In this document: in pieces, positions 2,465 to 61,490 of the stretch
Layout of the letters: each line of letters begins with the position of its first letter
How positions within the stretch are numbered: position 1 is the first letter of the stretch
Assembly (NCBI GenBank): GCA_035079385.1
Contig: JAVHKY010000028.1
Coordinates: 7,378,001 to 7,442,000, forward strand
Direction: 5' to 3'
Length of the DNA: 64,000 nt
Source of the DNA: Aspidiotus rigidus
Lineage: Eukaryota > Arthropoda > Insecta > Hemiptera > Diaspididae
The notes under the pieces: generated by a model
Seen by the model: only the letters and a program-made list of their open reading frames with translations
Databases searched by the model: none
Told to the model about the DNA's origin: nothing
Made by a program: the position numbers and the translations under genes

Positions 2465-4363
2465 CTAGGGGGGAATTTAATATCTCTGAAAGAATTTTCG
2501 ACTCAGGATGTGGATTCTGCACTCAAAAAATTGAAACCAAAAAGGGGTATGGGCCCTGATGGAGTACTACCCTACATCTATACAGGATGCAGAGAATCGT
2601 TAGTGCTTCCGCTTACGTACCTCTTCAATTTAATACTTCATACACGCACGTATCCTCGCTCGTGGGTAATTTCCAAAATCACACCAGTGCCAAAAACGGC
2701 TGAAGCTTAGGAAATTTGCAACCATAGATCTATCTCGATCGTATGTGTCCCTGCTAAAATTTTTGAATCTGTGCTGTTCAGCAAGTTGAATCCTCAGACA
2801 AAGAATTTAATTCCGTCGCACCAGCATGTCTTTGTAGGGAGGAGATCGGTACAAACTAATCTCCTGGAATTGACTTATTGTACATAAGGTAGTAGATGAA
2901 AGAGTATCCTCTCAGTTAGACATTATATATTTAAATTTTGAAAAAACTTTTGACAACGTAGATTATAACAAATTACTCGAGAAACTTGATTTCATTGGTT
3001 TCTCCGACTCTCTCATTGAACTGTTGTGGACTTATTTATTGGAAAGAAAACAGTATGTCATGAACTCATGTTCAATGGAGCTAAGTCTGAAATGTTCGAT
3101 AGTTCCTCGGGGGTACCACATGGATCTGTTCTGGGTTTATATCTCTTCCTCTTATTTATGATTGGCGTAGATAAAGACTTAAGATATTCGCGGTGCTCAT
3201 TGTACGCTGACGATGTAAAGCTATTCAGAGAGGTACGCGGTTTGGAGGATTCTGTGTTGCTGCAGCGGGACCTCGATGTGTTGACTAGATGGAGCGAGGA
3301 AAATACGATGCTTTTAAAAACCAAAAAATGTAAAGTGATGATGTTCTCTCTTAAGCGAACTAAGATTCAGACAGAATATCAGATATGTGGAGAGATCTTA
3401 AAATCAGTTGAGGAAATTCGGGATCTTGGTATCCTCTTTGATCCCAGAATAAACTTTGATTGCCACTTACACAAGGTACTCAATAACGCAAAACGCAACT
3501 GGGAATCATTATGAGACAAACAAAATCTTTTGTCAACATGTCTGTTCTCCGCTTGCTGTACCTGGTGCTTGTACGATCGCATCTGGATAGTGCAAGTGTG
3601 ATATGGGGTATAGTAGATAAGGGGAAGTTGAAAATTGAACGTATTCAAAAAATGTTCACAAGATATCTTTATTTTAGAAATTTTGAATATTACGATACCT
3701 CAATTACTTATTCGGAATTGGTCGTGGGTTACGAGTTAACTACTCTAAAAGTAAGAAGCGAACTTAGTATAATAATGATGGTGAGCGATATGTGGAAAAA
3801 CTGAATCGTCGTTCTTACTAAGTAAGATAAATTTCCTCGCTCCATCCAGAACGAGTAGGTGTAGGGATATCTTTCAGATTCCTCAGCGCAGAACGCAGCA
3901 TTTCGCTTCTGCTCCACTGCTTCGTGCCCTGTCTCTCTTGAACCGTGTTGTTAAAGAAGACCGCACGATTGATATATTTTTTGACAGTAGAAAAATTTAA
4001 GGTAGCAAGGAGACGACAGTCCTCATGAATTTGGAAACAAATTGATAATGCTCGCCAATACCTTATTTTTGTTCATTATTCAAATATCTCTCTTTTTTTT
4101 TTTTTTTCATATTATAAATTTTTTAGTCTGAATGGGTCCGCACCCCTATGATCAAATGGCCGCCATAATGTAATATATCTGTAATTATTATTATTATATC
4201 ATCTATTTATTTATTTTTATTATTATTACTTTTTTTGTTTATTCTTCGAAATGATTGGTTTGTGGAAGGGGTTGGTGGATTGGACATGGGACCAGGGTTG
4301 GGGTGGCTAATAGTGGACATATTATCATTATCGTTTTTTTTTTTGTTGTTCATCATCCGTATT
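2465..4363 (+). mobile_element. Jockey/CR1-like LINE copy 1, 5' part (decayed RT)
   Basis: This is a 5'-truncated non-LTR retrotransposon read in several broken frames. The frame at 2510-2710 holds a fingers motif (GMGPDGV). The frame at 3026-3514 holds the PHGSVLG turn and the catalytic YADDVKLF box, with both aspartates present. The frame at 3511-3804 covers the thumb and connection region (LVRSHLDSASVIWG). Stops and frameshifts near 2708, 2885-2990 and 3514 make it non-functional. The 3' UTR follows from about 4000 and contains landmarks shared with three other copies, including GATCAAATGGCC and a G-rich block at 4255-4320. It is interrupted at about 4363 by the Foldback-like block and resumes at 8577. 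The clade is judged from general RT appearance only. Confidence 0.85.
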
Positions 4364-4574
4364 AACAGGGAACCTGTTTTATGGGGGGCTATTTGAGAAA
4401 TCTGCCGTGCGCCGTCCAGCGAAAAACTTAGAAACAATTACGGCTTCCTTAACGAAGTTAAACGAGGAACGCAGGGAACCTGTTTTATGATTCGAATGAG
4501 ATTTGGTATTGAAAATTCAAGGAAGCCTAGATTTGGAGAAAGGTAGTAAAAAGAAGGCCTAGACCAACTCCAAA

Positions 4575-5865
4575 TTTTTCTAAGTCCCCCTCCTATCATA
4601 TATGGCTCGAGAGTCGAAATTTTTCTAAGTCCCCCACTATCATATATGGCTCGAGAGTCGAAATTCTTCTAAGTCCCCCTTCTATCATATATAGCTCGAA
4701 AGTCGAAATTTTTCCAAGTCCCCCTTCTATCATATATGGCTCGAGAGTCGAAATTCTTCTAAGTCCCCCTTCTATCATAGATGGCTCGAGAGTCGAAATT
4801 CTTCTAAGTCCCCCTCCTATCATATATAGCTCGAGAGTCGAAATTTTTCTAAGTCCCCCTTCTATCATATATAGCTCGAAAGTCGAAATTTTTCTAAGTC
4901 CTTCTCCTATCATATATGGCTCGAGAGTCGAAATTTTTCCAAGTCTTCCTCCTATCATATATAGCTCGAGAGTCGAAATTTTTCTAAGTCCCTCTCCTAT
5001 CATATATGGCTCAAGAGTCGAAATTTTTCTAAGTCCCCCTTCTATCATATATAGCTCGAAAGTCGAAATTTTAACAGGGAACCTGTTTTATGGGGGGCTA
5101 TTTGAGAAATCTGCCGTGCGCCGTCCGCCGTTCGCCGTCCGCCGTCCGCCGTCCGCCGTCCGCCGTGCGCCGTCCAGCGAAAAACTTAGAAAAATTTCGA
5201 CCCTCGAGCCATATATGATAGGAGAGGGACTTGGAAAAATTTCGACTCTCGAGCTATATATGATAGAAGGGGGACTTAGAAAAATTTCGACTCTCGAGCT
5301 ATAGATGATAGGAGGGGAACTTAGAAAAATTTCGACTCTCGAGCTATATATGATAGAAGGGGGACTTAGAAAAATTCCGAATCTCGAGCTATAGATGATA
5401 GGAGGGGAACTTAGAAAAATTTCGACTCTCGAGCTATATATGATAGAAGGGGGACTTAGAAAAATTTCGACTCTCGAGCCATATATGATAGGAGAGGGAC
5501 TTAGAAAGATTTCGACTCTCGAGCTATATATGATAGAAGGGGGACTTGGAAAAAATTTCGAATCTCGAGCTATAGATGATAGGAGGGGAACTTAGAAAAA
5601 TTTCGACTCTCGAGCTATATATGATAGGAGGGGGACTTGAAAAAATTTCGACTCTCGAGCTATATATGATAGAAGGGGGACTTAGAAAAATTTCGACTCT
5701 CGAGCTATAGATGATAGGAGGGGAACTTAGAAAAATTTCGACTCTCGAGCTATATATGATAGAAGGGGGACTTAGAGAAATGTCGACTCTCGAGCCATAT
5801 ATGATAGGAGAGGGACTTAGAAAAATTTCGACTCTCGAGCTATATATGATAGAAGGGGGACTTAT
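4575..5865. repeat. 45-bp minisatellite array, first part, with inversion
   Basis: Monomers of 45 bp (for example successive TATATGATA or TAGATGATA ends at 5220, 5265 and 5310) run in one orientation at about 4575-5068. After a spacer they run in the opposite orientation at about 5180-5865. Because 45 is a multiple of three, one frame stays open and gives an apparent 15-residue repeating peptide. I treat that as a by-product, since it appears on whichever strand the array faces. Related, more degenerate monomers occur outside the block near 34100, 38450 and 60800. Confidence 0.9.
5070..5182 (+). repeat. GC-rich satellite spacer with 7-bp microsatellite
   Basis: The spacer opens with a short palindrome (AACAGG-GAA-CCTGTT), continues through TTTATGGGGGGCTATTTGAG, and ends in about eight copies of the heptamer GCCGTCC at 5119-5178. 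Other copies lie at about 4366-4432 on the plus strand and at 5917-5996, 6716-6796, 7296-7375 and 8095-8175 on the minus strand, with fewer heptamers. The satellite often changes orientation at these spacers. Confidence 0.8.
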
Positions 5866-8289
5866 TTCTAAGTCCTTCTCCTATCATATATGGCTCGAGG
5901 GTCGAAATTTTTCTAAGTTTTTCGCTGGACGGCGGACGGCGCACGGCGCACGGCAGATTTCTCAAATAGCCCCCCATAAAACAGGTTCCCTGTTAAAATT
6001 CCGACTCTCGAGCTATATATGATAGGAGGGGGACTTGGAAAAATGTCGACTCTCGAGCTATATATGATAGGAGGGGGACTTGGAAAAATTTCGACTCTCG
6101 AGCTATAGATGATAGAAAAGGGGGGGGGGGGCTTAGAAAAAATTCGACTCTCGCGCCATATGTGATAGGAGAGGGACTTAGAAAAATTCCGACTCTGGAG
6201 CTATATATGATAGGAGGGGGACTTGGAAAAATTTCGACTCTCGAGCTATATATGATAGGAGGGGGACTTAAAAAAACGACGGCTTCCTTAACGAAGTTAA
6301 ACGAGGAACGCAGGGAACCTGTTTTATGAGTCAAATAGGAGTTGGTATTGAAAATTCAAGGAAGCCTAGACCTAGATAAAGCTAGTATAAAGAAGGCCCA
6401 GACGTAAAATAAGCCTAGTATAATGTAGTTTGAAAGTCCAAGTTTTTCTCAAATCTCGAGCTATTTATGATAGGAGGGAGACTTGGGAAAAGTTGTCCCC
6501 TATCATATATAGGTCGAGAGTCAAAAGTTTTCCAAGTCCCTCTCCTATCATATATGGCGCGAGAGTCGAATTTTTTCTAAGTCCCCCCTCCTATCATATA
6601 TAGCTCGAGAGTCGAAATTTTTCTAAGTCCCTCTCCTATCATATATGGCTCGAGAGTCGAAATTTTTTCTAAGTCCCCCTCCTATCATATATTCTCGAGA
6701 GTCGAAATTTTTCTAAGTTTTTCGCTGGACGGCCGACGGCGGACGGCGCACGCCAGATTTCTCAAATAGCCCCCCATAAAACAGGTTCCCTGTTAAAATT
6801 TCGACTTTCGAGCCATATATGATAGGAGGGGGATTTAGAAAAATTTTGACTCTCGAGCCTTACATGATAGGAGGGGGAATTAGAAAAATGTTGTTTCTCG
6901 AGCCATATATGATAGAAGGGGGACTTGGAAAAAATTTCGAATCTCGAGCTATAGATGATAGGAGGGGAACTTAGAAAAATTTCGACTCTCGAGCTATATA
7001 TGATAGGAGGGGGACTTGAAAAAATTTCGACTCTCGAGCTATATATGATAGAAGGGGGACTTAGAAAAATTTCGACTCTCGAGCTATAGATGATAGGAGG
7101 GGAACTTAGAAAAATTTCGACTCTCGAGCTATATATGATAGAAGGGGGACTTAGAGAAATGTCGACTCTCGAGCCATATATGATAGGAGAGGGACTTAGA
7201 AAAATTTCGACTCTCGAGCTATATATGATAGAAGGGGGACTTATTTCTAAGTCCTTCTCCTATCATATATGGCTCGAGGGTCGAAATTTTTCTAAGTTTT
7301 TCGCTGGACGGCGGACGGCGCACGGCGCACGGCAGATTTCTCAAATAGCCCCCCATAAAACAGGTTCCCTGTTAAAATTCCGACTCTCGAGCTATATATG
7401 ATAGGAGGGGGACTTGGAAAAATGTCGACTCTCGAGCTATATATGATAGGAGGGGGACTTGGAAAAATTTCGACTCTCGAGCTATAGATGATAGAAAAGG
7501 GGGGGGGGGGCTTAGAAAAAATTCGACTCTCGCGCCATATGTGATAGGAGAGGGACTTAGAAAAATTCCGACTCTGGAGCTATATATGATAGGAGGGGGA
7601 CTTGGAAAAATTTCGACTCTCGAGCTATATATGATAGGAGGGGGACTTAAAAAAACGACGGCTTCCTTAACGAAGTTAAACGAGGAACGCAGGGAACCTG
7701 TTTTATGAGTCAAATAGGAGTTGGTATTGAAAATTCAAGGAAGCCTAGACCTAGATAAAGCTAGTATAAAGAAGGCCCAGACGTAAAATAAGCCTAGTAT
7801 AATGTAGTTTGAAAGTCCAAGTTTTTCTCAAATCTCGAGCTATTTATGATAGGAGGGAGACTTGGGAAAAGTTGTCCCCTATCATATATAGGTCGAGAGT
7901 CAAAAGTTTTCCAAGTCCCTCTCCTATCATATATGGCGCGAGAGTCGAATTTTTTCTAAGTCCCCCCTCCTATCATATATAGCTCGAGAGTCGAAATTTT
8001 TCTAAGTCCCTCTCCTATCATATATGGCTCGAGAGTCGAAATTTTTTCTAAGTCCCCCTCCTATCATATATTCTCGAGAGTCGAAATTTTTCTAAGTTTT
8101 TCGCTGGACGGCCGACGGCGGACGGCGCACGCCAGATTTCTCAAATAGCCCCCCATAAAACAGGTTCCCTGTTAAAATTTCGACTTTCGAGCCATATATG
8201 ATAGGAGGGGGATTTAGAAAAATTTTGACTCTCGAGCCTTACATGATAGGAGGGGGAATTAGAAAAATGTTGTTTCTCGAGCCATATAT
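5532..8289. repeat. 1,379-bp tandem duplication inside the satellite block
   Basis: Positions 5532-6910 are repeated head to tail at 6911-8289. Every stretch I compared is identical, including a run of 12 Gs near 6120 and 7500 and reading frames that differ by exactly 1,379. Such identity in slippery sequence implies a very recent unequal exchange or an assembly duplication. Confidence 0.85.
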
Positions 8290-8576
8290 GATAGAAGGGG
8301 GACTTAGAAAAATTTCGATTCTCGAGTTATATATGATAAGAGGGGGTTGGAAAAATGTCGACTCTCGAGCTATCATATATAGCTGGAGATTTGAGAAATA
8401 TTTAGACTCTCAAACTATATTATACTCGTACTAGTCTTATAGTAGGTCTAGGCCTTCTTTATACTAGCTTCATCTAGGTCTAGGCTTCCTTGAATTTTCA
8501 ATACCAAATCCCATTTGACTCATAAAACAGGTTCCCTGCGTTCCTCGTTTAACTGCGTTGAGGAAGCCGTCGTTTT

Positions 8577-8749: not shown

Positions 8750-10085
8750 AAAAAACTTTTCAATGAGGTCATTATCAGGGAAGAACCGATTCAAAATAAT
8801 AACCTCATTATCATTCACATGACAAATTATCTCAACGCACTCGAGGGCCAACCGTCTGCAAAAGAAACTCTCAGAATGGAGTAATACGGCTTGGTCCAAC
8901 TCAAAATTGTGGCCGGATTCCAAAAGGTGTTCGGCGAAAGCCGATTTCTCTTGGAGGAGGGGAGGGGGGGGGGGGGGGGTAGAAGCGGCTTCATCGAGGC
9001 GTTCCTGAACCCCGATACAAAGTTGCCGGCCTGTCTCCCCTGTGTAAACAGCCGGGCAACCAGAAAATTTGAGCTTGTAGACACCACTTCTCTCAGATAT
9101 AGGGATGGAATCTTTAGATTTACAGAGAAGACTACGAACCGTATTAGGATTATAAAAAACAGGACGAAGACCAAAAAGCTTAAGGAGGCGGGTAAGTTCG
9201 GAAGACAACCTCCCAGAAAACGGAATACGAGCCCATTTTTCTTCCCTCCTAGAACCAGACAAACACCGGGGAAGAGATTTGGTAAGATCTAAGCTTTTGA
9301 AATAAGTCTTTTCCAAATCATCCTATAATAATAACAAGCTCGAAACCATTAGAAAGAGCAAGATGCTTGATGATAGATACCTCCTCAAGAAACGCCTGAG
9401 GAGATTGAAAGGAAGGGGTGGACGAAGCTGTTGAAGGTGACCAATTTATGGGAGGTGGGGCAATACGAGGAGGCATGAACACAGATGTCCCGTACACGTA
9501 TTTTTCCGGAAGATACCAAAACTATGGACGCCACCAACAATAGAAATAGAGAGGTCAAGAAAGTTGATGGAAGACCCACCCACCTCTAAGGTGAACTTGA
9601 TGGTGGGTTACCTGCCATTGAGAAAGGTAATGAAAGTTTGAAACTTCGAAACAGAACCTTTCCAAAGGCAAAGGACATAATCGCATGATAACGGTGCCAA
9701 TAAACCACATGAGGAAGGAGGTAGAAACCAGACTGGAACACCTCGCTCTCAAGTTTTTTAAAGAAGACTCCAGAGACCAAGGAGCCAAGGGGAGAGCCTA
9801 TCGGAACACCGATGTTCTTAGGGAACTCGTAAATAAGGTAACGATATTGACAAAAGTTGGGGGAAAGGCACAACTCAAGAAGGGTCATGAAGTCATCAAC
9901 AAGGGGAGTAGGCACTTGCGCGTTAACCAACAAAATTCTAAAATACTCTAAGGTAGGGGGGAGGGGGATGCTCGGAAACATGCTAGTCACGTCAAAAGAA
10001 ATAAGAATAGAATTCTCAGGAGGGGAGACACAACTGATTGTGTCCACCAATTCCCGAAATTCGAACTCTGCCTGTCACAAGTAAA
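8750..10085 (-). pseudogene. Divergent Penelope-like element (type alpha), decayed
   Basis: Read on the minus strand, the order is RT then GIY-YIG endonuclease. The RT part (about 10050-9586) has an FDVTSMFPSIP-like motif A and GVPIGSPLGS. Where related PLEs have HRYVDD the sequence reads HRYHAIM, so the catalytic aspartates are lost. Frameshifts follow. The endonuclease part (about 9316-8750) has GVYKL, then YTGETGRQ, then the conserved SAFAEHL and ALE blocks. A long C run (G on the plus strand near 8955) sits inside the endonuclease and is probably slippage. The 3' end abuts the 3' tail of LINE copy 1, tail to tail. Endonuclease scraps of the same type recur near 60058-60350. Confidence 0.85.
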
Positions 10086-13350: not shown

Positions 13351-13830
13351 TGTGTCATCACAAGATTGTATGCGCGAGTGAATGGTCTTTTCCTCTTCAA
13401 GAATGCCGGCAATGCAAATTCTCAAAAATTAGAGAAGATATAGGTTAGTTTTCAAAAAGTATCTTAGACTTACATCACTTTCAACTATACTATAAACTGG
13501 TAATGCAGTTGTGAAATTGTACAAATAAAGGACTTTAGAGATAAAAAAATGTTGACAACAAGTGCGCAAACCGTAAAGACCAATGCATTAGGAGGGCTTC
13601 TTGCAAGCAACCACCGCTGTCCATCAACAATCATGGATACTTGAGACTGCTTGCAGGGAGCCATGGTTTGGGTCACAGATAAAAAACTTGTCTACACACG
13701 TGTTTCCAATTCCATTGATTCATGGGCAATATTCCAACGTATCGAAATTAAAATTTAATTTGAAAATAATTTTAAATTGAATCAATTCGTTTCTGTAAGT
13801 TACTGTCATCCAAAATTAGGGAAAATATTC
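13351..13830. other. Intergenic or intronic DNA, no gene recognised
   Basis: Only short frames are present. A minus-strand frame at 13485-13676 has no recognisable domain. Confidence 0.4.
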
Positions 13831-13837
13831 AAAGATT

Positions 13838-15642
<1,805 letters not shown>

Positions 15643-19147: not shown

Positions 19148-19619
19148 TTGCTGGAAGCGAAGAAGGAATCCAAGACAGCACAGTATGGAAAGTACTCCAG
19201 ATCAATTCCATACATAGAAAAGTTCACAAAAAAAGTGATAAATAGGTTGAATGGTTATAACGTGAATGTGAGTATCCATAACAACCCATCCTTGGTGAAA
19301 AAAATACATAACGGCCAGACAAAAGAAAAAGATAAGAGGAGCTTGAGTGGAGTATACAAGTTCAATTGTAAAAAGTGCGCAGGCCTTTACATTGGTGAGA
19401 CTGGGTGAAAGTTTGACATTAGGAGGAAAAAACATGAAACATCAAGGGATAAAAGAGATAACAAGTCACTGTTTGGCAAACACTGCAATGAAAAATAGCC
19501 CAATGGTAAAGGAATACTCAAAGTCAAACATGTAGAAACCCGTACGAAGAGAAGCAAACTCTGGGAACAGATGAACCTTGCTAAGGCAAAGAGGAGAAAA
19601 GCTAGTCTTGAAGAATAAC
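19148..19619 (+). pseudogene. Penelope-like element, GIY-YIG fragment (distinct lineage)
   Basis: A frame from 19148 reads through IPYIEKFTKKVINRL, then SGVYKFNCKKCAGLYIGETG. This is the GIY-YIG core with CxxC between GVY and YIG. A frameshift at about 19404 moves the remaining conserved part to a second frame (KFDIRRKKHE onward). The spacing and the IPYI motif resemble the canonical Penelope clade more than the other PLEs in this window. There is no RT part. LINE copy 3 begins directly at 19620. Confidence 0.75.
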
Positions 19620-20745: not shown

Positions 20746-21559
20746 TAAGTAAATAAATAAAAAATTATTCGGCTTGGTGATTGGACGAGACAGGAAGAAC
20801 AGAACCGATCAATATAATGACAGCAGACCTGGTAGCCAATATAAAGTAGCGCATGAGCAAATGATTCAATCACGATGTAGTATTGTTGTAGCCAATCAGA
20901 TCACAGTGTTCTACAATGATAACTAATGTTTTCAGTGAAGAACTTGGACAGGTATACGAAACTGATAATTTTTGCCCGTTTTGCGTTCCAGTTCCACCTA
21001 ATTCTCCCCAGCAGCGTTGGTAGCATCCTGTGTAATTTCGGGCGAAAATAATCGGAGCGATACAACTGATGATGGGGTAAGACGTCCGAAATTACTCTTG
21101 TACGCTGATTAATAAAGTAAGATTGTACACTTGAGATCTTTTTGATATTGTGCACTACTTACACTTTATCACTCTTAATATGAGTTCCGATGACCAAAAA
21201 ACGTTGAAGGTATAGTGCGATCTTAGAATAATTACACTCCACTTTTTATTGAGGCCAAACTGCACCAACATTGCATACAACAAAGACGGGAAAATTGATG
21301 AGGGAAAGTGTGGGCAACGAGCAGAAACTATCCTTAAATTGGTCTGAATCAATTTTTATGAGGGAAGGTACTTTTTAGAAAACTTGATGCTCTACAAATT
21401 TTGTTCCCTTAATTTTTCTCCTAAATTGCTTCATTCCCATATTATTTCGAGATTACTCAGTGAACAAATACTGGTGACGTTACTTGGCTGAATAGGTACT
21501 TTTTTCTTCATGAGTAATATCGTGATGATTTGCTTGTTCAGTCTTGATTTTGGGTTTAG
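20746..21559. other. Intergenic DNA, no gene recognised
   Basis: Only short frames are present. I see no repeat with a second copy in this window. Confidence 0.4.
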
Positions 21560-22016: not shown

Positions 22017-23146
22017 ATTAAAGTACCCTCCAACAGCCGATCGGCCAATAACAGGAGGGCACTATAAACAAAAAACAAAATAAAACAAAAAAGAAATACA
22101 ATAAAAACAATAGAAAAATACAGATAATAAATAAATAAAAAAAAAAAAAAAAAACAATAATGATGATAATATGTCCACCACTAGCCACCCCAACCCTAGT
22201 CCCATGTCCAATCCCCCAACCCCTTCCACAAACCAATCATTTTGAAGAATAAACAAAAAATAAATAAAAAATAAATTGAATTAATATAATATTATAATAA
22301 TAATAATTACAGATATATTATGGAAGCCATTTGGTCATAGGGGTGCAGACAAGATCAGACTAAAAAACTTATAATATGAAAAAAAAAAAAAAAAAAAAAA
22401 AAAATTAGATAAATAATGAACAAAAATAAGGTATGGGCAAGCATTATCAATTTTGTCTCCAAATTCATGAGGACTGTCGCCAGCTTGCTACCTAACGTTT
22501 TTCTACTGTCAAAAAAGATATCAATTGTGCGGTCTTCTCTAACAACACGGTTCAAGAGAGACAGGGCACGAAGCAGTGGAGCAGAAGCGAACTGCTGCGT
22601 TCTGTGCTGAGGAATCTGAAAGATATCCCTACACCTTTTCGTTCTGGATGGAGCGAGGAAATTTATCTTACTTAGTAAGAACGACGATTCAGTTTTTCCA
22701 CACAGGATAACCCTCACTATCATTATTAAACTAGGTTCCCTTCTCACTTTTAGAGTAGTTAACTCGTAACCCAGGACCAATTCCGAATAAGTAATTGAAA
22801 TATCGTAATATCCAAAATTTCTAAAATAGAGATATTTTGTGAACATTTTTTGAATACGTTCAATTTTTTTCAACTTCCCCTCACCTACTGGACCCCATAT
22901 CACACTGGCACTATCCAGATGCGATCGTACAAGCACCAGATACAGCAAGTGGAGAACAGACATGTTGACAAAAGATTTGGTTTGTCTCATAACGACTCCC
23001 AAATTGCGTTTTGCGCCATTCAGTACTTTGTGTAAGTGGCAATCAAAGTTTATTCTGTGATCAAAGAGGACACCCAGATCCCGAATTTCCTCAACTGATT
23101 CGATGATCTCTCCACGTATCTGATATTCTGCCTAAATCTTAGAAAA
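22017..23146 (-). mobile_element. Jockey/CR1-like LINE copy 4 (minus, 5'-truncated)
   Basis: From its 3' end, the terminal hairpin lies at 22022-22062, the G-rich UTR block at about 22175-22245, and the GATCAAATGGCC-type block near 22330. The coding frame at 23002-22355 retains the intact thumb and C-terminal region (LVRSHLDSASVIWGPV through LLRALSLLNRV), about 215 codons including run-through. The 5' break is near 23146 at the GCAGAATATCAG region. It looks like the least degraded C terminus of this family here. It interrupts the 10-bp-periodic array. Confidence 0.85.
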
Positions 23147-26957: not shown

Positions 26958-26998
26958 CACACGAGCGCTTTCGGCTAAACGGCCATTCTCAAGAGACG
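26958..26998 (-). ncRNA. Hammerhead-ribozyme-like motif of PLE-beta
   Basis: On the minus strand the sequence runs TTGAGAATGGCCGTTTAGCCGAAAGCGCTCGTG. It has a 3-bp stem GGC/GCC closing a loop, then GAAA, then the palindrome AGCGCT. The 5' core is TTGAGAA rather than canonical CUGANGA, so activity is doubtful. Confidence 0.45.
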
Positions 26999-29286: not shown

Positions 29287-31329
29287 AACGCGAAAGACGA
29301 ATACTCCGACGTGGAGTAAAGCATGCAAACCGCAGAAAAATAAAAGACGACGAGCGCTTTCGGTTAATAAACCATCTTCAAGCCTGAAATGAAAGCAACT
29401 GACGAAAAAATGAGAAGAACAAGGTATTAAGATCGTCCGAACGAGAAATCACGGTGTGAGTCATAAACCAGTTCGATCAGGCCATCTTCCGGAATGAACG
29501 AGTTGAGTACAGTGATACCGTCAGTGTTGAGATGACGCATTATCTCTATATTCTCGAGGGCGATGCGCTTACGGTAGGAATTCTCCTTATGGAGGAGCTT
29601 TTCGGATCCCTCGCGGAAGCTGTGGTCGCTGTTTATTAAGTGATCGGCGAAAGCTGACTTCCCTAAGTGTCCCTTCTTCCAAGACTTCAGGTGCTCAGCT
29701 ACTCTAACTTTCATTTGGCGGCTGGTCTCACCAATATAAAAGCCTCCACAATCCTCACATTCCAACTTATAAACACCACTCCTCTCATCGACAGGTATGG
29801 GGTCCTTCAGTCTCACAAACAACCTCTTGACTGTGGTAGGGTTGTAAAACGCGGGTCTGAAGCCAAATGGGTGAAGGGCCCGACCCGATTGCAGGGAGAA
29901 CTTCCCCAGGAAAGAGAGACTGATCCAACGCAAACGGCGATCACGGATCGTGTCTCGGGGGAGGGAGGTGGTGGAATCCAGGAGGCTCCTCGTAACTTTC
30001 CTCCGAACCATCATGTCAACGTCGACATTGACCCCATTCACTCTGGCCAGGTGTTTTATTGTGAATAACTCTTTCTTGAAGACAGACTGACTTAAAGGAA
30101 TACGAGTCAGTCTGTGAACTAGGCTATGAAAGGCAGCCATCTTTTGAGCAACAGGACCGAACGAACCACCGTGGACTAAAACATCGGTCGTAGTATCTTT
30201 CCTGTAAATTCCAAACTTATGGATACCGTCCATTATAGAGATCGATAAATCCGAAAAGTTAATAAAAAATACCCCTATTTCCAACGTAAATTTGATGGAA
30301 GGATTCCAGGAATTGAGATACCTCAGAAACTCACCAAGGAGATCTGGCTGACCAGTCCAGGTACATGGAACGTCATCAACGTACTTAGTGAATATGATTA
30401 AGTAAAACTTGGTTCGAGGAAAAGAGGTCAAGTTCAAACTTAGACAAGAAAATTTCGGAGATGAGAAAGCCTAGTGGTGATCCAATGGGGATCCCTACTT
30501 CATCAGGGAACTCGAAAAATTTCCCTTCAAATTTACAGTAGTTGGGGGACCAGCAAGTGTTCCAAAGATCGAAAAATTCATGAAGTTCATTATGAGGAAT
30601 GTTGGCTTTGACGAGTAGCTCACCCATACGCTGGATGGCAGCAGCCTTAGGAATATTCGGGAACAAACCAACAACATCAAACGAGCAGATGGTCGTTCCC
30701 GGGGGAAGACTTACATCCTTGAGGACGTCAGTTAAAGAGGCCGAATTCAAGACCGAATGAGGGGATTCAAAATCAATTCGATTTTTGAACCAACGGTCAG
30801 GAATTTGGCAAGGAGGTAGGTAGGAGAGGAGACGAAAGAAACAACGGCTCGCATCGGGGTATTGTTCTTATGCACTTTAGGCAGCCCGTACAAGAGGGGG
30901 GGTGTGGGGTTAGGAACAAGGAAAGCTTTTTTTCAAAGCAGGAGTTTTGATAACAGTCTCACTCCTGTTGATGACACTCCTAACTTCTTTGACGTGCTTA
31001 GGAAAGCTGAAATCCTCACTCTCTTTAGCACCTTACTGCTGTAGGACTTCATGGACCTTAGAAGAATAGGCCGACCTCTCCATCACTACAACAGCGTTGC
31101 CCTTGTCAGCCTTAGTGACGATCAAATCTCCTTCTTTCATCTTCCTCCTTAAACCCTGAATCACTCCTCCCAAATTATTACTCATGCGAGGGAGGTGGTT
31201 ATTACGGACTAATTCGGCACAGACTTTCTGGGTATTAAACCCAGGACCAATCTTAACCGCAAGATCCACAACAACATTGTTATTATTTATTATGGATAGC
31301 CGATTCGTTTAATTTAAAGACGTCACGTG
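29273..31329. repeat. 14-bp target-site duplication around inserted PLE
   Basis: AAAGACGTCACGTG occurs at 29273-29286 and again at 31316-31329, exactly at the two edges of the minus-strand PLE-gamma copy. The host reading frame (C terminus of PLE-beta) continues across when one duplicate is ignored. Confidence 0.9.
29287..31315 (-). pseudogene. Penelope-like element (type gamma), 5'-truncated copy
   Basis: This is a close relative of the intact element at 54945-57772. It covers the protein from about residue 205 (DLAVKIGPGFNTQKV) to the C terminus, but in several frames: 31269-31033, 30750-30385 and 30437-29427. YVDD and GVY...YIGETSRQ are intact. The breaks are frameshifts near 30400, 30830 and 31030. 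The 5' edge (31260-31315) carries a short inverted piece of the element start (GGCTATCCATA) fused to internal sequence, a truncation with inversion. The 3' UTR with the hammerhead-like motif lies at 29348-29385. Confidence 0.9.
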
Positions 31330-31752
31330 TTGAACTAGTATATTCCTGAGGAGGGATTGATTGAATTAGTCTATGAGGATGATTCACATTTTGATGACTC
31401 GCTGGTTCAGTCATGATCTCCTTCGATGTTACTTGTCCTTGTTGGTGTTGGGTTCAGTTGCTTTCCGTCACTTGAGAATGTCTGTTTAGCCGAAAGCGCT
31501 CGTGTGTTTTCAAATTTTTGCCAGTTTTGCAGTGTTTTCTTTCGTTTACTCTTCAAAGTATACCCTCTAATTATGGATAATCGCAACTTACAAAAATATA
31601 TTGATTCGACCACCGCTCTCTCCTCAGCAAGGAGCTCAAATGGTAGACGACGTGCTAGTAGGCGAAGAGCCTCCTCAGAGACAGTGCGATATGAACTAAT
31701 ACCGTTGGATCTTTTCCATCGCAAGCTCGGCTTATCTTGGGCCACCATATAA
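31316..31752 (+). pseudogene. Penelope-like element (type beta), plus copy, second part and next 5' end
   Basis: After the duplicated target site, the C terminus continues (YIPEEGLIELVYEDDSHFDDSLVQS, with one in-frame stop just before YIPEE) to a stop near 31416. The 3' UTR and hammerhead-like motif follow (31466-31506). Then a new ATG at 31573 opens MDNRNLQKYI, which matches the N terminus of the intact gamma protein (MDSRNLKERI). The frame ends at 31752. The 3' end of one unit is therefore joined to the 5' end of a second, truncated unit, the head-to-tail arrangement typical of PLEs. Confidence 0.8.
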
Positions 31753-35518: not shown

Positions 35519-37262
35519 CGAGAGATTAGCGATTTATCAAAACCACACTAAACAAACCGCCAAGATCTTTCGGTTAAACAACCATCTTCGGAGCGCGAAC
35601 GAAAGCGACTAATCCAACAACAACGAAGACAGAGAAACTAACTTGAGGATCATGATTGAACCAGCGAGTCATCGAAGTGTGAATCATTCCTATAGACTAG
35701 CTCAACCAGACCCTCATCAGGAATATACCTTTTTAAGACGGTGAAGTCTTCATTATTCCGGTGACGTAAGATTTCAATATTTTTCTAAAGCCATACGTTT
35801 AAAGTATGAGTTCTCCCTATGGAGGAGGGTACCAGACTCCTCTTTGACTCTATGGCCACATTCGATAAGGTGATCGGCAAAAGCCGACTCACCCAAGTTA
35901 CCCTTCTCCCAAGCTTTTTTATGCTCATCAATTCTAATGAATTGGAGCTGACGGCCGGTCATTCCTACATAAACTCCAGGGCAATCGTTGCAGGCTGTGC
36001 TGTAAACACCGCTCCTCTGGGCTAGAGGAATGGGGTCCTTCAATTTACGAATAAACTTTTTACCGTGTTAGTATTATAATATTCCGGACGGAACCCGAAA
36101 TGACTGTGCACACGGCCCTACTTCAACGAAAATCTACAGTCTAATCCAACGTGTCTTCCTATCTAGGTGTGAATCCCTGGAGAAGGAGGTGGTGGAATCG
36201 AGGCTTTTTCTGGTAAGTCTTACGGATCATTAGGCCGATGTCCACACTCACTTCATTCACTCTAGCCAGGTGCTTAATTGTCCCTAATTCCTTTTGGAAA
36301 ACGTCCAGACTCAAAGGAATATGAGTCAGGTGATGGATCAAGCTATTGAAGGTAGCGATCTTATGTGCTGCTGGGCAGACGGATGACCTGGGGATTGTAA
36401 TATCGGTCGACGTTTCTCTTCTATAAATTCCAAATTCACGGACGCCATCTCTAACGAAAATGGACAAGTCCAAAAAATTTATCAATGGGCCACCAACTTC
36501 CAGGGTGAATTTTAAGGAAGGGTATTGGCTATTTAAGTAAGCGAGAAACTCACGAAGGAGTTCGACTGGACCGGTCCACGCACAAAGTATGTCGTTCACA
36601 TATCTATGCCAGTAAAAGACAGGATTTAACAGCACCTGGCCTGAGGAAAACATATCGATCTCAAATTTGGACATGAATACCTCAGATGTCAGAGAGGCCA
36701 ATGGAGAACCATTGGGGATCCCCACCTCATCCGGGAACTCGAAAAATCTCCCTTCAAATTTGCAGAAGCTGGAGGTCGAACAAACCCTCAGAAGATCAAA
36801 AATTCCGCCATCTCCTTGTGAGGGACACCTGATTTTACGAGCAATTCGCCCATGTGTTGGATAGTAACAGCCTTAGGGATGTGAGGAAATAATCATACAA
36901 TATCAAAGGAGCATAAGGTCTTCAACCTATCCGCCAAGGAGCCCGAGTTCTTTACTGAATACGGGGAGGTACAATCTACTCGTTATTTAAACCATCGATC
37001 TAGAAATTTAGCTAATAAGTAAGTTGGTGATGAGACAAACGACACGACCAGCCGCACTGGAACATCTTTTAGTCTATGGAATGATTCACACTTCGATGAC
37101 TCGCTGGTTCAATCATGACCCTCAAGTGAATTTCTCTGTCTTCTTTGTTGTTGGATTAGTCACTTTCGTTCGTGCTCCGAAGTTGGTTGTTTAACCGAAA
37201 GATCTTAGCGGTTTTGATTAGTGTGGTTTTAATATTTCGCTACTCTCTCGTGGAGTACACCT
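35519..37262 (-). pseudogene. Penelope-like element (beta-related) with long inverted termini
   Basis: On the minus strand the RT runs from about 37050 to 36159 with several frameshifts. It has GIPNGSPLASLTSEVFMSKFE and HRYVNDILCAW, so the first catalytic Asp is Asn. The GIY-YIG endonuclease lies at 36043-35774 (GVYSTACNDCPGVYVGMTGRQ; SAFADHLIECGH). Inverted termini of about 170-190 bp, each containing 3' UTR and the hammerhead-like motif, lie at 35519-35715 and about 37070-37262. The right arm includes an inverted copy of the last coding residues (DSHFDDSLVQS). This is the same tail-inversion plan as the intact gamma element. Confidence 0.85.
35552..35598 (-). ncRNA. Hammerhead-like motif, PLE 35519 copy (3' end)
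   Basis: Minus strand: CGCT then CCGAAGA, stem GGTT-loop-AACC, GAAA, palindrome AGATCT, then T and GGCG. Stem I can form 4 pairs (CGCU with GGCG). In the opposite end of the same element (37170-37211) the partner is TGCT with AGCG, still paired, which supports a real helix. Confidence 0.5.
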
Positions 37263-44439: not shown

Positions 44440-44650
44440 GACTTTGCTCAACAGCTACTAACCTAATGAGGGGTTCAATAAATTAATTTATGAGTTGATA
44501 TCTCGCTAGTTTGGTCCTGATTTTGTCGGACGTTCTCGTTTTCAGTCGTCTTCGGGTTAGTTACTTTCTTGTCTAGCTAGATGAAAGCGCTCGCGGTCTG
44601 TGTTGTAGTTTCTTCACGGTTTATGCAAAATTTACTGCTTTATTTTACTC
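44440..44650 (+). pseudogene. Degenerate PLE 3' UTR
   Basis: It contains CGCTAGTTTGGTCCTGATTTTG (compare CGCTGGTTCAGTCATGATCTCC in PLE-beta), GGGTTAGTTACTTTC, and then GAAAGCGCTCGCGG in the position of the hammerhead-like motif. The stem II region (CTAGCTAGAT) is eroded. Confidence 0.5.
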
Positions 44651-54860: not shown

Positions 54861-54944
54861 TCTAATTTGACAATTCAAAATTTAATCTATTACGTAGACT
54901 TTCCATTCTCTCAAATCTTCCTTTCTTTTGAGAAGGATACATCT

Positions 54945-55191
54945 ACACGAATCCGTTCCTTTAAGTTACGGCTATCCATACTAAACAATAAAGAGGAATA
55001 CTCCGACGTGGAGTAAAAAAATGCAAACCGCAGAAAAAATGAAAATACGACGAGCGCTTTCGGTTAAACAACTATCTTCGAGCCTGAAATGAAAGCAACT
55101 GACGAACAAAAGAGAAGAACGAGGTATCGTCGGAGTATTCCTCTTTATTGTTTAGTATGGATAGCCGTAACTTAAAGGAACGGATTCGTGT
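54945..55191. repeat. 64-bp inverted repeat spanning the PLE start codon
   Basis: Arms 54945-55008 and 55128-55191 are perfectly complementary and separated by 119 bp. The second arm contains the ATG at 55157. An RNA covering both arms would bury the start codon in a long duplex. Confidence 0.9.
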
Positions 55192-57625
55192 AATTGAGAA
55201 CGCTTCTGCGGTGTATTTACAGTTCCTTTTTCTGAAATTTCGGAAGCAACGCGCTTCGTTTTCCTCTCATATTTGGTTTCTTCGTCGGTGTTTAGTGTTA
55301 CATTTGAGGCCCAAGTTCGTTAAATTCCGGTTTTATTCCGATTGCAAGGTTACGACTAAGAAACTGGAAAATTATATGAGGGAGAAGTGGATCAGAACAG
55401 AGTTGCGAAGATGGTATGGTAAATTTAATATCACGACCAGATTAAACCTTATGGTCCATTCGAGACTCTCCGGCATGCTCCTCCCCCTTGAGTTGGATTA
55501 CTTTATGAGGGACGTCAATGAAAAGTGTCGGAAGTTCGAGGCGAAGTTGAAGGAGAGGAAAAATAAGAAGCTGTCCTCCCTAATGACGGTTAATGAGGAG
55601 GTGGTTGAGGAGGGGGTGAGTGATGGTGTTGTCGTTCATAAATTCCATCCTCCTCTCATAAATAATAGTCAGGTAGTGTTCAATAGTGACGAAACATCCC
55701 TCCTTGAGAAAGGTTTGAAGTTCAGTATGCCTCCCCTCAAGAATGATGAAACCTTGGCGAATGTTGTTGCGGATCTTGCGGTTAAGATTGGTCCTGGTTT
55801 TAATACCCAGAAAGTCTGTGCCGAATTAGTCCGTAATAACCCCCTCCCTCGCATGAGTAATAAATTGGGAGGAGTGATTCAGGGTCTAAGGAGGAAGATG
55901 AAAGAGGGAGATTTGATCGTCACTAAGGCTGACAAGGGCAACGCTGTTGTAGTGATGGAGAGATCGGCCTATTCTTCTAAGGTCCATGAAGTCCTACAGC
56001 AGTGTGGTGCTAAAGAGAGTGGGGATTTCAGCTTTCCTAAGCACGTTAGAGAAGTTAGGAGTGTCATCAACAGGAGTAAGGCTATTATCAAAACTCCTGC
56101 TTTGAAAAAAGCCGTCCTGGTTCCTAACCCCACACCGCCCCTCTTGTACGGGCTGCCTAAAGTGCATAAGAACAATACCCCGATGCGACCCGTTGTTTCT
56201 TTCGTCTCCTCTCCTACCTACCTCCTTGCTAAATTCCTTGACCGTTGGTTCAAAAATCGTATTGATTTTGAATCCCCTCATTCGGTCTTGAATTCGGCCT
56301 CTTTAACTGACGTCCTCAAGGATGTAAGCCTTCCCCCGGGAACGACCATCTGCTCGTTTGATGTTGTTGGTTTGTTCCCGAATATTCCTAAGGCTGCTAC
56401 TATCCAGCGTATGGGTGAGCTACTCGTCAAAGCCAACATTCCTCATAATGAGCTTCACGAATTCTTCGATCTTCTTAATACTTGCTGGTCCCCTAACTAT
56501 TGTAAATTTGAAGGGAAATTTTTCGAGTTCCCTGACGAAGTAGGGATCCCCATTGGATCTCCACTAGGCTCTCTCATATCCGAAATCTTCATGTCTAAGT
56601 TTGAACTTGACCTCTTTTCCTCGAACCAGGTATTACTTAATCATATTCATTATTGGCACAGGTACGTTGATGACGTTCTATGTACCTGGACTGGTCACCC
56701 AGATCTCCTTGGTGAGTTTCTGAGGTATCTCAATTCCTGGTACCCTTCCATCAAATTTACGTTGGAAATAGGGGTATTTTCCATTAACCTTTTGGATTTA
56801 TCGATCTCTATAATAGACGGTACCCATAAGTTTGGAATTTACAGGAAAGATACTACGACCGATGTTTTAGTCCACGGTGGTTCGTTCGGTCCTGTTGCTC
56901 ACAAGATGGCTGCTTTTCATAGCCTAGTTCACAGACTGACTCGTATTCCTTTGAGTCAGTCTGCCTTCAAGAAAGAGTTAATCACAATAAAACACCTGGC
57001 CAGAGTGAATGGGGTCAATGTTGATGTTGACGTGATGGTTCGGAGGAAAGTTACGAGGGGCCTCCTGGATTCCACCACCTCCCTCCCCCTCCCCCGAGAC
57101 ACGATCCGTGATCGCCGTTTGCGTTGGATCAGTCTCCCTTTCTTGGGGAAGTTCTCCCAGCAATTGGGTCGGGCCCTTCGCCCGTTTGGCTTCAGACCCG
57201 CGTTTTACAACCCTACCACAGTCAAGAGGTTGTTTGTGAGACTGAAGGACCCCATACTTGTTGATGAGAGGAGTGGTGTGTATAAGTTGGAGTGTGAGGA
57301 TTGTGGAGGCTTTTATATTGGTGAGACCAGCCGCCAAATGAAAGTTCGAGTAGCTGAGCACCTGAAGTCTTGGAAGAAGGGACACTTGGGGGAGTCAGCT
57401 TTCGCCGATCACTTAATAAACAGTGGCCACAGCTTCCGTGAGGGATCCGAAAAGCTCCTCCATAAGGAGAATTCCTACCGTAAGCGTATCGCCCTCGAGA
57501 ATATAGAGATAATTCGTCATCTCAACACTGACGGTATCACTGTTCTTAATTCGTATATTCCGGAAGATGGCCTGATCGAACTTGTTTATGACTCACACCG
57601 TGATTTCTCGTTTGGACGATCTTAA
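55157..57625 (+). CDS. PLE polyprotein: reverse transcriptase + GIY-YIG endonuclease
   Basis: I place the start at the ATG at 55157 (MDSRNLKERI; a TTG at 55148 extends the frame by three codons but is not a likely start). The protein has 822 residues. Residues 1-200 are basic and of unclear role. The RT spans about 250-560: KADKGNAVVVMER (257-269), YGLPKVHK (331-338), motif A FDVVGLFPNIP with D402, motif B GIPIGSPLGS (463-472) and catalytic YVDD (503-506). The GIY-YIG nuclease starts at GVY (707-709), has C713 and C716, then YIGETSRQ (720-727), R731, H735, SAFADHL and the ENSYRKRIALENIEI block. Paired cysteines between GIY and YIG are a feature of PLE endonucleases. The enzyme would nick target DNA and copy the element RNA in the nucleus. 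A related truncated copy begins its N terminus with MDNRNLQKYI at 31573, which supports the start. The stop codon (57623-57625) touches the 3' inverted repeat. Confidence 0.95.
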   Translation: MDSRNLKERIRVIENASAVYLQFLFLKFRKQRASFSSHIWFLRRCLVLHLRPKFVKFRFYSDCKVTTKKLENYMREKWIRTELRRWYGKFNITTRLNLMVHSRLSGMLLPLELDYFMRDVNEKCRKFEAKLKERKNKKLSSLMTVNEEVVEEGVSDGVVVHKFHPPLINNSQVVFNSDETSLLEKGLKFSMPPLKNDETLANVVADLAVKIGPGFNTQKVCAELVRNNPLPRMSNKLGGVIQGLRRKMKEGDLIVTKADKGNAVVVMERSAYSSKVHEVLQQCGAKESGDFSFPKHVREVRSVINRSKAIIKTPALKKAVLVPNPTPPLLYGLPKVHKNNTPMRPVVSFVSSPTYLLAKFLDRWFKNRIDFESPHSVLNSASLTDVLKDVSLPPGTTICSFDVVGLFPNIPKAATIQRMGELLVKANIPHNELHEFFDLLNTCWSPNYCKFEGKFFEFPDEVGIPIGSPLGSLISEIFMSKFELDLFSSNQVLLNHIHYWHRYVDDVLCTWTGHPDLLGEFLRYLNSWYPSIKFTLEIGVFSINLLDLSISIIDGTHKFGIYRKDTTTDVLVHGGSFGPVAHKMAAFHSLVHRLTRIPLSQSAFKKELITIKHLARVNGVNVDVDVMVRRKVTRGLLDSTTSLPLPRDTIRDRRLRWISLPFLGKFSQQLGRALRPFGFRPAFYNPTTVKRLFVRLKDPILVDERSGVYKLECEDCGGFYIGETSRQMKVRVAEHLKSWKKGHLGESAFADHLINSGHSFREGSEKLLHKENSYRKRIALENIEIIRHLNTDGITVLNSYIPEDGLIELVYDSHRDFSFGRS

Positions 57626-57665
57626 TACCTCGTTCTTCTCTTTTGTTCGTCAGTTGCTTTCATTT

Positions 57666-57706
57666 CAGGCTCGAAGATGGTTGTTTAACCGAAAGCGCTC
57701 GTCGTA
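57666..57706 (+). ncRNA. Hammerhead-ribozyme-like motif in intact PLE 3' end
   Basis: Order: AGGC, core TCGAAGA, T, stem GGTT-GTTT-AACC, GAAA (from 57691), palindrome AGCGCT, then C57700 and GTCG. In a hammerhead the order is stem I, CUGANGA, stem II, GAAA, stem III, then cleavage after NUH. Here stem II is perfect, A and U of the palindrome fit positions 15.1 and 16.1, and C57700 fits position 17. C3-U4 of the core read U-C, so catalysis is uncertain. An inverted copy lies at 55047-55086 on the minus strand. Confidence 0.5.
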
Positions 57707-57784
57707 TTTTCATTTTTTCTGCGGTTTGCATTTTTTTACTCCACGTCGGAGTATTCCTCTTTATTGTTTAGTAAGGATACATCT

Positions 57785-60057: not shown

Positions 60058-60350
60058 ACTTGTGCAGCTTTGTACTAGGGCTTAAGAACACCTCAATGAA
60101 GTTACTGTTGCCCCTCTCCGAAAACGCTCAGCCTTTGCAGAGCACCTCTCAGCTACTGACCATAAATTTGATCTTCACCGAACCGTCGTGCTCCATTCAG
60201 AGAATTCCTTCCGTTGACGATTGGCCCTTGAGCATGCCGAGATCGTTCGCTATATTCGAATTGTACAATAATGTCGTACTTGTAATAAATCGCTTCCACC
60301 CTGAGAATGATTTAATCGAGAAGTTCTACAGTTTCTCTCCTTCTCCTAAC
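60058..60350 (+). pseudogene. PLE-alpha GIY-YIG C-terminal fragment
   Basis: Across two frames it contains RSAFAEHLSATDHKFDL, VVLHSENSFRRRLALEHAEIVR, then INRFHPENDLIEKFYSF. These match the alpha element at 8750 (SAFAEHLLESGHNFEL; ILNRFFPDNDLIEKFFF). The GVY...YIG core is missing. Confidence 0.65.
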
Positions 60351-61157: not shown

Positions 61158-61490
61158 TGTCCACGGAACTCCTCCGAAACTACCCGATGGATTTTTTTGT
61201 AACTTGGCCATATTGTAGTAGTATATCTGAAGATGTGCACCTGCAATTTTTTTGAAAATCGGATGAGTAGTTCTCGAGAAATTTTCAATTTGTTGAGAAA
61301 TTTTGCAGTATTTCGAGTACCTTTTTGTCCGCGGAACTCCTCCGAAACTACCCGATGGATTTTTTTGTAACTCGGCCATATTGTAGTATTATATTTGAAG
61401 ATGTGCACCTGCATTTTTTTTTGAGGATCGGATGAGTAGTTCTCGAGAAATTTTTACTTTTGTTGAAAAATTTTTCACTATTACGAGTAG
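61158..61490 (-). repeat. Two tandem copies of a 168-bp unit
   Basis: GGAACTCCTCCGAAACTACC starts at 61165 and again at 61333, offset 168. The shared text continues through GATGGATTTTTTTGTAACT, ATGTGCACCTGCA and GGATGAGTAGTTCTCGAGAAA. 168 is divisible by three, so minus-strand frames show a 56-residue period. It may be a satellite monomer pair. I do not recognise a protein. Confidence 0.75.

Follow-up and report, generated by a model that had tools for sequence, protein, structure and literature searches.

The 64,000-nt stretch of Aspidiotus rigidus DNA analysed here (the window) carries seven full copies of a 38-nt motif, all in the pseudo-LTR-like termini of PLEs, and this motif is very probably a type I hammerhead in the minimal form known from PLEs, located in the pseudo-LTR, that would cleave as a dimer by means of a short palindrome. 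Observed here were a covarying fold, the position of the motif, palindrome swaps between element families, relatives with a canonical core, and, in places, tandem units whose length is constant. A preliminary description of this DNA had reported six PLE termini sharing the motif; the shared motif stands, with a count of seven, plus a remnant at 44559..44596 (+) that retains the palindrome AGCGCT and its flanks and has lost the core.

The gamma element has a PLE coding frame at 55157..57625 (+), assigned by translation and a Pfam RVT_1 match. The open frame extends over 55103-57625 (840 codons, or 822 from the first ATG at 55157-55159, with the stop at 57623-57625) and is intact, and it encodes a reverse transcriptase (RVT_1, E 3.7e-8) followed at the C end by a weak GIY-YIG match (E 0.0024) that lies below Pfam's cut-off; GIY-YIG is listed for some PLE relatives of this ORF, and terminal repeats are present too. 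A reverse transcriptase, a C-terminal GIY-YIG and such termini we take together to mark a PLE. That assignment agrees with excerpts of PMC11167929. The 3′ pseudo-LTR plus tail (57625..57779, +, 155 nt) is a 99% inverted match to the inverted 5′ pseudo-LTR (54973..55127, −), and the tail (57744-57779) carries a second copy of the ORF start (55128-55163). At 54944-55192, its 5′ end, the element forms a head-to-head junction around the inverted pseudo-LTR, with 65 nt of the ORF start perfectly inverted (54944-55008 / 55128-55192). The motif at 57667-57704 starts 41 nt 3′ of the stop of the intact reverse transcriptase frame, in the pseudo-LTR of an element with a PLE reverse transcriptase and GIY-YIG (the latter a sub-cut-off match in the window ORF), and the PLE location proposed earlier is borne out by the Pfam reverse transcriptase match and the terminal repeats. 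Viral contigs and prokaryotic contigs, each scanned once for relatives of the PLE, gave 17 loci, of which 16 are short matches of 19-58% identity. In the remaining one, L006 (JAGLBD010000131.1), a degenerate PLE in a MAG, no terminus was recognised and no Rfam match found; the MAG is labelled as bacterial (Pseudogulbenkiania), and with its degenerate PLE-like frame this contig is probably contamination. Elsewhere in the window, 3020-3514, 13776-14468 and 22355-23131 appear from their translations, read by eye, to be fragments of non-LTR-type reverse transcriptases separate from the PLEs. A satellite-like array of ~45-nt units in both orientations occupies ~4531-8500, and sub-threshold MIR1446 matches at 6658-6848 and 8037-8227 (35.2 bits against a gathering threshold of 70) are presumably due to the inverted repeat.

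The seven copies belong to three element families (gamma with three, e and beta with two each), one copy in every family being the inverted partner of another, and they align gapless in the order stem I, YYGA(A/G)(G/A)(A/U), U, stem II (4+4+4), GAA, AGNNCU, Y, stem I. The gamma copy at 57667..57704 (+), delimited by a covariance model and the alignment of the seven, consists of stem I (GGC 57668-57670 / GTC 57701-57703), the core UCGAAGA (57671-57677), an extra U (57678), stem II (GGTT 57679-57682 / AACC 57687-57690), GAA (57691-57693), the palindrome AGCGCT (57694-57699) and H17, a C at 57700, with the predicted cleavage site between 57700 and 57701; stem I in gamma has three pairs only. Of its two relatives, the copy in the inverted 5′ terminus (55048..55085, −) has an A x C mismatch at the core-side pair of stem II, and that at the 3′ end of a 5′-truncated PLE (29348..29385, −; element 31278-29293, −) has the core UUGAAGA, which departs from the consensus at C3 only, plus the extra U. 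Both e copies carry the palindrome AGATCT, at 35558..35595 (−) with core CCGAAGA and stem I CGCT/GGCG, and in the inverted terminus at 37173..37210 (+) with core CCGAAGU and stem I TGCT/AGCG. The beta copies share the core UUGAGAA (U3-A8); that at 26959..26996 (−) has stem II GGC/GCC and a U x U mismatch in stem I, that in the inverted terminus at 31468..31505 (+) has stem I CAC/GTG and one stem II mismatch, and the two flank a 4.4-kb stretch with a gamma element inside. The letters previously given for stem II, for the AGCGCT and AGATCT palindromes and for the two e-family stems I were confirmed on reading the window, to which we add the change of G8 to A in beta (YYGAGAA), the extra U in all seven copies and a kappa-family copy discussed below. 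The PLE fragments alpha (8759-10050) and j (60065-60256) gave no motif with model R2.

None of the seven window copies has the strict core C3 U4 G5 A6 N7 G8 A9: their cores are UCGAAGA (two), UUGAAGA, CCGAAGA, CCGAAGU and UUGAGAA (two), so that the consensus is lost at C3-U4 in all seven, at G8 in two and at A9 in one; in every one of them a single extra U also separates A9 from stem II. G12 A13 A14, the A15.1-U16.1 pair and H17 are present in every copy, as is a 6-nt palindrome without a loop. Positions 3 and 8, which form a core contact in known hammerheads, make a standard pair in all seven (U.G in gamma, C-G in e, U-A in beta). A register with a base inserted between U4 and G5, which would keep CU in gamma, was rejected by inspection, since it leaves the base before the core unpaired in stem I, while the direct register yields the best-ranked covarying helix.

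A covariance model built from the seven copies scored them at 51-61 bits and the next match in the window at 11.5 bits, and the motif is not a chance match. Hammerhead pairing was 89.3% complete in the seven rows, and among 500 shuffles the covariation score was reached in none and the percentage paired in one; doubly changed pairs (71/500) and pair types (148/500) were not special against the same shuffles with so few rows. Stem I ranked first by covariation among 44 helices that were at least 70% paired, out of 465 three-pair helices scanned. A search of the window with the palindrome pattern by itself returned mostly AAATTT and AATATT matches and was uninformative, and other core-like matches (41375, 60748, 61421 and others) were judged by eye to be chance; 61417-61448 reached 12.0 bits (E 5.2) with model R2.

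The motif was then counted in the assembly to which the window belongs (102 contigs totalling 441 Mb), where all counts are lower bounds. The 21-mer GGTTGTTTAACCGAAAGCGCT, covering stem II, GAA and the palindrome, occurs at least 1,436 times, against none for the reversed control. A loose pattern that left the stems and core positions 3, 4, 7 and 8 free, and that required neither stem II pairing nor the extra U, matched at least 5,921 places (2,949+2,972) against 592 (292+300) for the reversed control. Among the first 100 places listed, 72 fit the motif frame (40 distinct; one, AUGAAAA, is probably chance and was removed before the stem I test below), the 28 that failed the frame filter having been read by eye only, which puts true relatives in the genome at about 4,200 (applying the 72%) to 5,300 (subtracting the control). 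The PLE carrying the motif is very abundant in this genome. The 72 sampled places have the cores UUGAAGA (25), CUGAAGA (11), UCGAAGA (10), UUGACAA (8), GUGAGAA (4), UUGAGAA (3) and others (11), with AGCGCU as palindrome in 68 and a standard 3-8 pair in 63. The rows taken from the loose pattern were filtered on at least three of four stem II pairs and the extra U, a selection that biases upward both the stem II percentages of these rows and the apparent constancy of the U; in genome rows other than L048 and L050 the extra U was demanded by pattern or filter. The preliminary description had C3-U4 as YY in every copy, which is true of the window (7/7) and fails beyond it: the canonical CUGANGA is present in 12 of the 72 sampled relatives and absent from 60, and the canonical core with extra U and GAAA occurs at a minimum of 2,716 places (1,376+1,340), against 12 (5+7) in the reversed control. 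The loose-pattern and canonical-core sets overlap. A palindromic 6-mer is present in 84 of the first 100 listed canonical-core places and missing from 16.

The canonical-core relatives were reached by searching contig C1 with model R1 in 20 stretches of 10 kb placed at regular intervals, which gave three weak matches (18.3 bits, E 0.052) that on reading proved to be another PLE clade, at L048 4307-4344 (+) and at L050 3032-3069 (−) and 5640-5677 (+). Their motif reads ACAA-CUGAUGA-U-GGGAUAACACCC-GAA-AGUACU-C-UUGU, where GGGAUAACACCC is stem II (GGG..CCC); the core in L050 is fully canonical, stem I, stem II and the palindrome are all unlike those of the window copies, and these copies also have the U between A9 and stem II. 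Along most of the length that could be matched, the L050 protein shares ~30% identity with the window ORF, and the termini of the element (2985-3306 and 5404-5724) are inverted repeats of 96.6% identity. At L050 5625-5690, an outer stem I (GTTGC/GCAAC) was noticed by eye beyond an internal loop (gac/ataa); it could supply the loop contact said to be missing in minimal PLE hammerheads. CAGTTGC also lies, by eye, upstream of gamma copies. The strict C3-A9 consensus was found in L050, L048, L019, L028, L066 and L069. Among these, L066 has stem I UAGU/ACUG, stem II GACG/CGUC and the palindrome AGUACU, and L069 combines AGAUCU, the palindrome of the e family, with a canonical core; in L067 stem II is good, but stem I has one pair and the place of the palindrome is taken by AGUUCU, which is none. 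Three palindromes are found at family level, AGCGCU, AGAUCU and AGUACU. L068 (G000 C1:9539405-9539525, −) has a canonical core, stem II GACA/TGTC and then an 8-nt palindrome, AGACGTCT, with a poor stem I. The window itself has one copy of this canonical-core family by model R2, a decayed kappa copy at 21062..21101 (+; 22.8 bits, E 0.0053) that accompanies PLE fragments at 19152-19599 and 20760-20930 and reads ACAA CUGAUGA U ... GAAAUUACUC UUGU, with the palindrome broken.

Covariation was measured on a 21-row alignment (A6) whose rows are related and were hand-picked from distinct types, as were those of alignment A5. A6 includes L066, L067 and L069 from 12 fetched places, the other nine being excluded because L070 resembles L069, L073 and L077 are decayed kappa copies, L068, L071 and L072 have no good stem I, and L074-L076 are apparent chance matches. 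In A6, 90.1% of 252 cells are paired, the covariation score is 0.604 against 0.205 ± 0.025 in shuffles (0/500) and 0.054-0.130 in slid versions, 10 of 12 pairs are changed on both sides (0/500), and stem I columns 2-37 hold six pair types; 18 rows, omitting the three added places, score 0.575 against 0.193 (0/500). The palindrome pairs alone also exceed all shuffles in score (0/500), and their doubly changed pairs (310/500) are unremarkable because only the inner pair varies. Stem I provides a clean test, as the sampled rows were not selected on it (several were filtered on stem II or U): the 39 distinct sampled rows hold 15 combinations, and 82.2% of their stem I pairs are standard against 47.6% when shuffled (0/5000). 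Stems I and II both covary, stem II subject to the row filter. For the 3-8 pair, covariation is no more than suggestive: shuffles matched it in 3/500 with 18 chosen rows and in 547/5000 with the 39 distinct rows sampled. The letters constant across all 21 rows are G5, A6, the extra U, GAAA and the G, C and U of the palindrome, although GAA, A..U and several of the invariant letters were fixed by the search patterns in most genome rows. The excess covariation in a family alignment that had been named as a check is therefore present, and the genome copies strengthen the hammerhead-like fold with compensatory changes in three helices that had been claimed from the window.

The other check, a match to a hammerhead model, came back empty: Rfam hammerhead models had no match to the motif at E ≤ 10 on 201 bases and none window-wide at E ≤ 5. 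The canonical L050 motif likewise had no Rfam hammerhead match in the same search, so the models failed on both copies of the class that were tried individually, and their silence is uninformative because a fully canonical copy was missed too. Single-sequence energy minimisation favours a different fold, a long hairpin (GAUGG..) that is the minimum-energy structure of a lone gamma RNA and, with a small shift, that of one beta RNA (two of the four folded), and in which 75-80% of cells pair. Its covariation is nevertheless at shuffle level, at 0.124 against 0.120 (199/500) on 18 rows and 0.093 against 0.113 (332/500) on 11 rows, and these counts contradict it; that this hairpin is the real fold is scarcely credible.

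We infer catalysis, dimer formation and a role in RNA processing along the following lines. The motif lies in the pseudo-LTR between the stop codon of one unit and the start of the next, with stem I and stem II forming inside one RNA. A single molecule cannot close AGNNCU on itself for lack of a loop, so two copies would pair into one 6-bp stem III; stem III is absent or possible only between copies, the palindrome being loopless in all seven window copies, and present in 68 of the 72 places sampled with the loose pattern and in 84 of the 100 sampled for the canonical core. Each partner of the dimer would supply the other's substrate strand and cut after C17 (57700/57701), and the cut would free a PLE RNA with a 5′ end ~72 nt before the ORF start of the following unit, whose start codon is placed from the repeat 57744-57779 / 55128-55163. 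Among the matches listed, some elements are arranged in tandem, each unit with a single motif: three same-strand gamma pairs are spaced 2,609-2,611 nt apart and three kappa pairs 2,742-2,752 nt. Such arrays are the minority among close neighbours. Of the 19 canonical-core pairs listed within 5 kb, 14 are head-to-head (− then +), four are same-strand and one, a match unlike a PLE, is of the other kind; the gamma list has 17 such pairs, 14 of them head-to-head and three same-strand, and the two lists share some places. In a head-to-head layout the dimer must form between transcripts, and the window gamma and e elements, each with one sense and one inverted copy, would need either separate transcripts or a tandem array for dimers to form. 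At G000 C1 7172996/7175739/7179870 (+), kappa motifs on the same strand lie 2,743 and 4,131 nt from one another, and some head-to-head motifs are only 36-65 nt apart (e.g., G000 C1 10067117 −/10067153 +).

The variant cores would also be expected if the copies were relics, that is, ancestral PLE hammerheads whose catalysis was lost in gamma, e and beta and which are drifting, with the termini kept as parts of the pseudo-LTR. This fits the non-canonical C3/U4 of all seven window copies, the 60 of 72 frame-fitting sampled copies without CUGANGA, and the finding that PLE hammerhead mutants still insert in vitro (excerpts of PMC11167929). Stem covariation among variant-core copies argues against plain relics, however, with scores of 0.537 against 0.224 within 12 A8 rows (0/500; doubly changed pairs 62/500) and 0.306 against 0.140 within 11 U3-or-C4 rows (0/500; doubly changed pairs 311/500), the rows of alignments A7 and A8 having been selected by core letters. 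Moreover, U3-A8 is a natural replacement of C3-G8 that is active in vitro in other hammerheads (excerpts of PMC3088659), and the element of the gamma copy has 99% identical termini and an intact frame, so we regard loss of catalysis throughout these families as rather unlikely. Still less probable is a structured, non-catalytic RNA that only resembles a hammerhead and tells the PLE protein where to bind or to begin reverse transcription. The start of reverse transcription a short way downstream in the Anolis PLE (excerpts of PMC11167929) and the invariant G5, A6, extra U, GAAA and palindrome G/C/U of the 21 rows, several of them pattern-fixed, would suit such a signal, but a mere binding site would not need the full hammerhead core that is found, as CUGANGA with GAAA, at the 2,716 or more canonical-core places.

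Within the hammerhead reading, families may differ in activity. The beta core differs from the consensus by one covarying pair (U3-A8) plus the inserted U, and with U4 kept the beta copies are likelier to be active; those gamma and e copies that carry C4 probably have little or no activity, as C4 and U3.G8 alter conserved letters. Core insertions lowered activity in the cases described, one being thought tolerable (excerpts of PMC3088659), and U9, as at 37173-37210, occurs in a working natural hammerhead (excerpts of PMC10085705). We tentatively entertain the possibility that PLE lineages here run hammerheads with an exchanged active-site pair (U3-A8, perhaps U3.G8) and an inserted U that work only as dimers joined by the palindrome and perhaps only when the PLE protein is bound, such cores making up most sampled copies (60/72) of one large group.

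Minimal type I PLE hammerheads were reportedly described by Cervera and De la Pena in 2014 and by Lunse, Weinberg and Breaker in 2017. In the available portions of PMC7761336 and PMC6155905, they share with the motif the pseudo-LTR, the order I-core-II-GAAA-III-H17, a missing or diminished stem III and proposed dimers. Those lacking stem III may self-cleave through dimers (PMC7761336, in part), and in short-stem-III hammerheads two motifs exchange substrate strands (excerpts of PMC7229834, PMC7761336 and PMC6155905). In contrast to them, as they are known from partial descriptions, the window copies vary at C3/U4 and partly at G8/A9, the copies here have a U between A9 and stem II, and stem III in the main families is a loopless 6-nt palindrome. 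Natural U3-A8 hammerheads show the same base-pair exchange as the beta and m families, which here occurs in PLEs beside C3-G8 and U3.G8 relatives in one genome (excerpts of PMC3088659). Axolotl retrozyme hammerheads also have a weak helix III, theirs with a palindromic tetraloop and better cleavage as dimers, but they belong to small non-autonomous tandem repeats of ~330-350 bp and have loop-loop contacts (excerpts of PMC7229834).

The Poseidon element PAc of Anolis carolinensis is, in the portions of PMC11167929 that describe it, a PLE with reverse transcriptase and GIY-YIG whose ORF starts at stem II, with the cut 26 bp downstream and the start of reverse transcription 111-118 bp into the ORF. 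The geometry here is similar, with C3 and G8 preceding an ATG (A9-U-G) where stem II starts, the cut 24 nt on and the element end 102 nt on; unlike in PAc, where the ORF starts inside the hammerhead, the frame of this ATG is closed by a stop three codons later, and the ORF begins ~72 nt after the predicted cut. The same portions state that the PAc hammerhead cleaves only with protein present, that its mutants still inserted in vitro and that no RNA-seq ends lay at the cut site, so the hammerhead structure may not matter for transposition. With a PAc-like geometry, the hammerhead here may depend on protein, and it may also be dispensable.

Minimal PLE hammerheads that act as dimers have been published before, and their activity and role are called a mystery (excerpts of PMC7761336). 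What look new are the palindrome-keeping swaps between families, the abundant variant cores with covarying stems and, perhaps, the U after A9. In a single genome there are thousands of copies, with about fifteen types of stem I, cores both canonical and variant, several palindromes, and tandem and head-to-head layouts. This makes testable the palindrome as a setter of dimer specificity between families, the tolerated drift of the 3-8 pair and of U4, and the need of cleavage for transposition.
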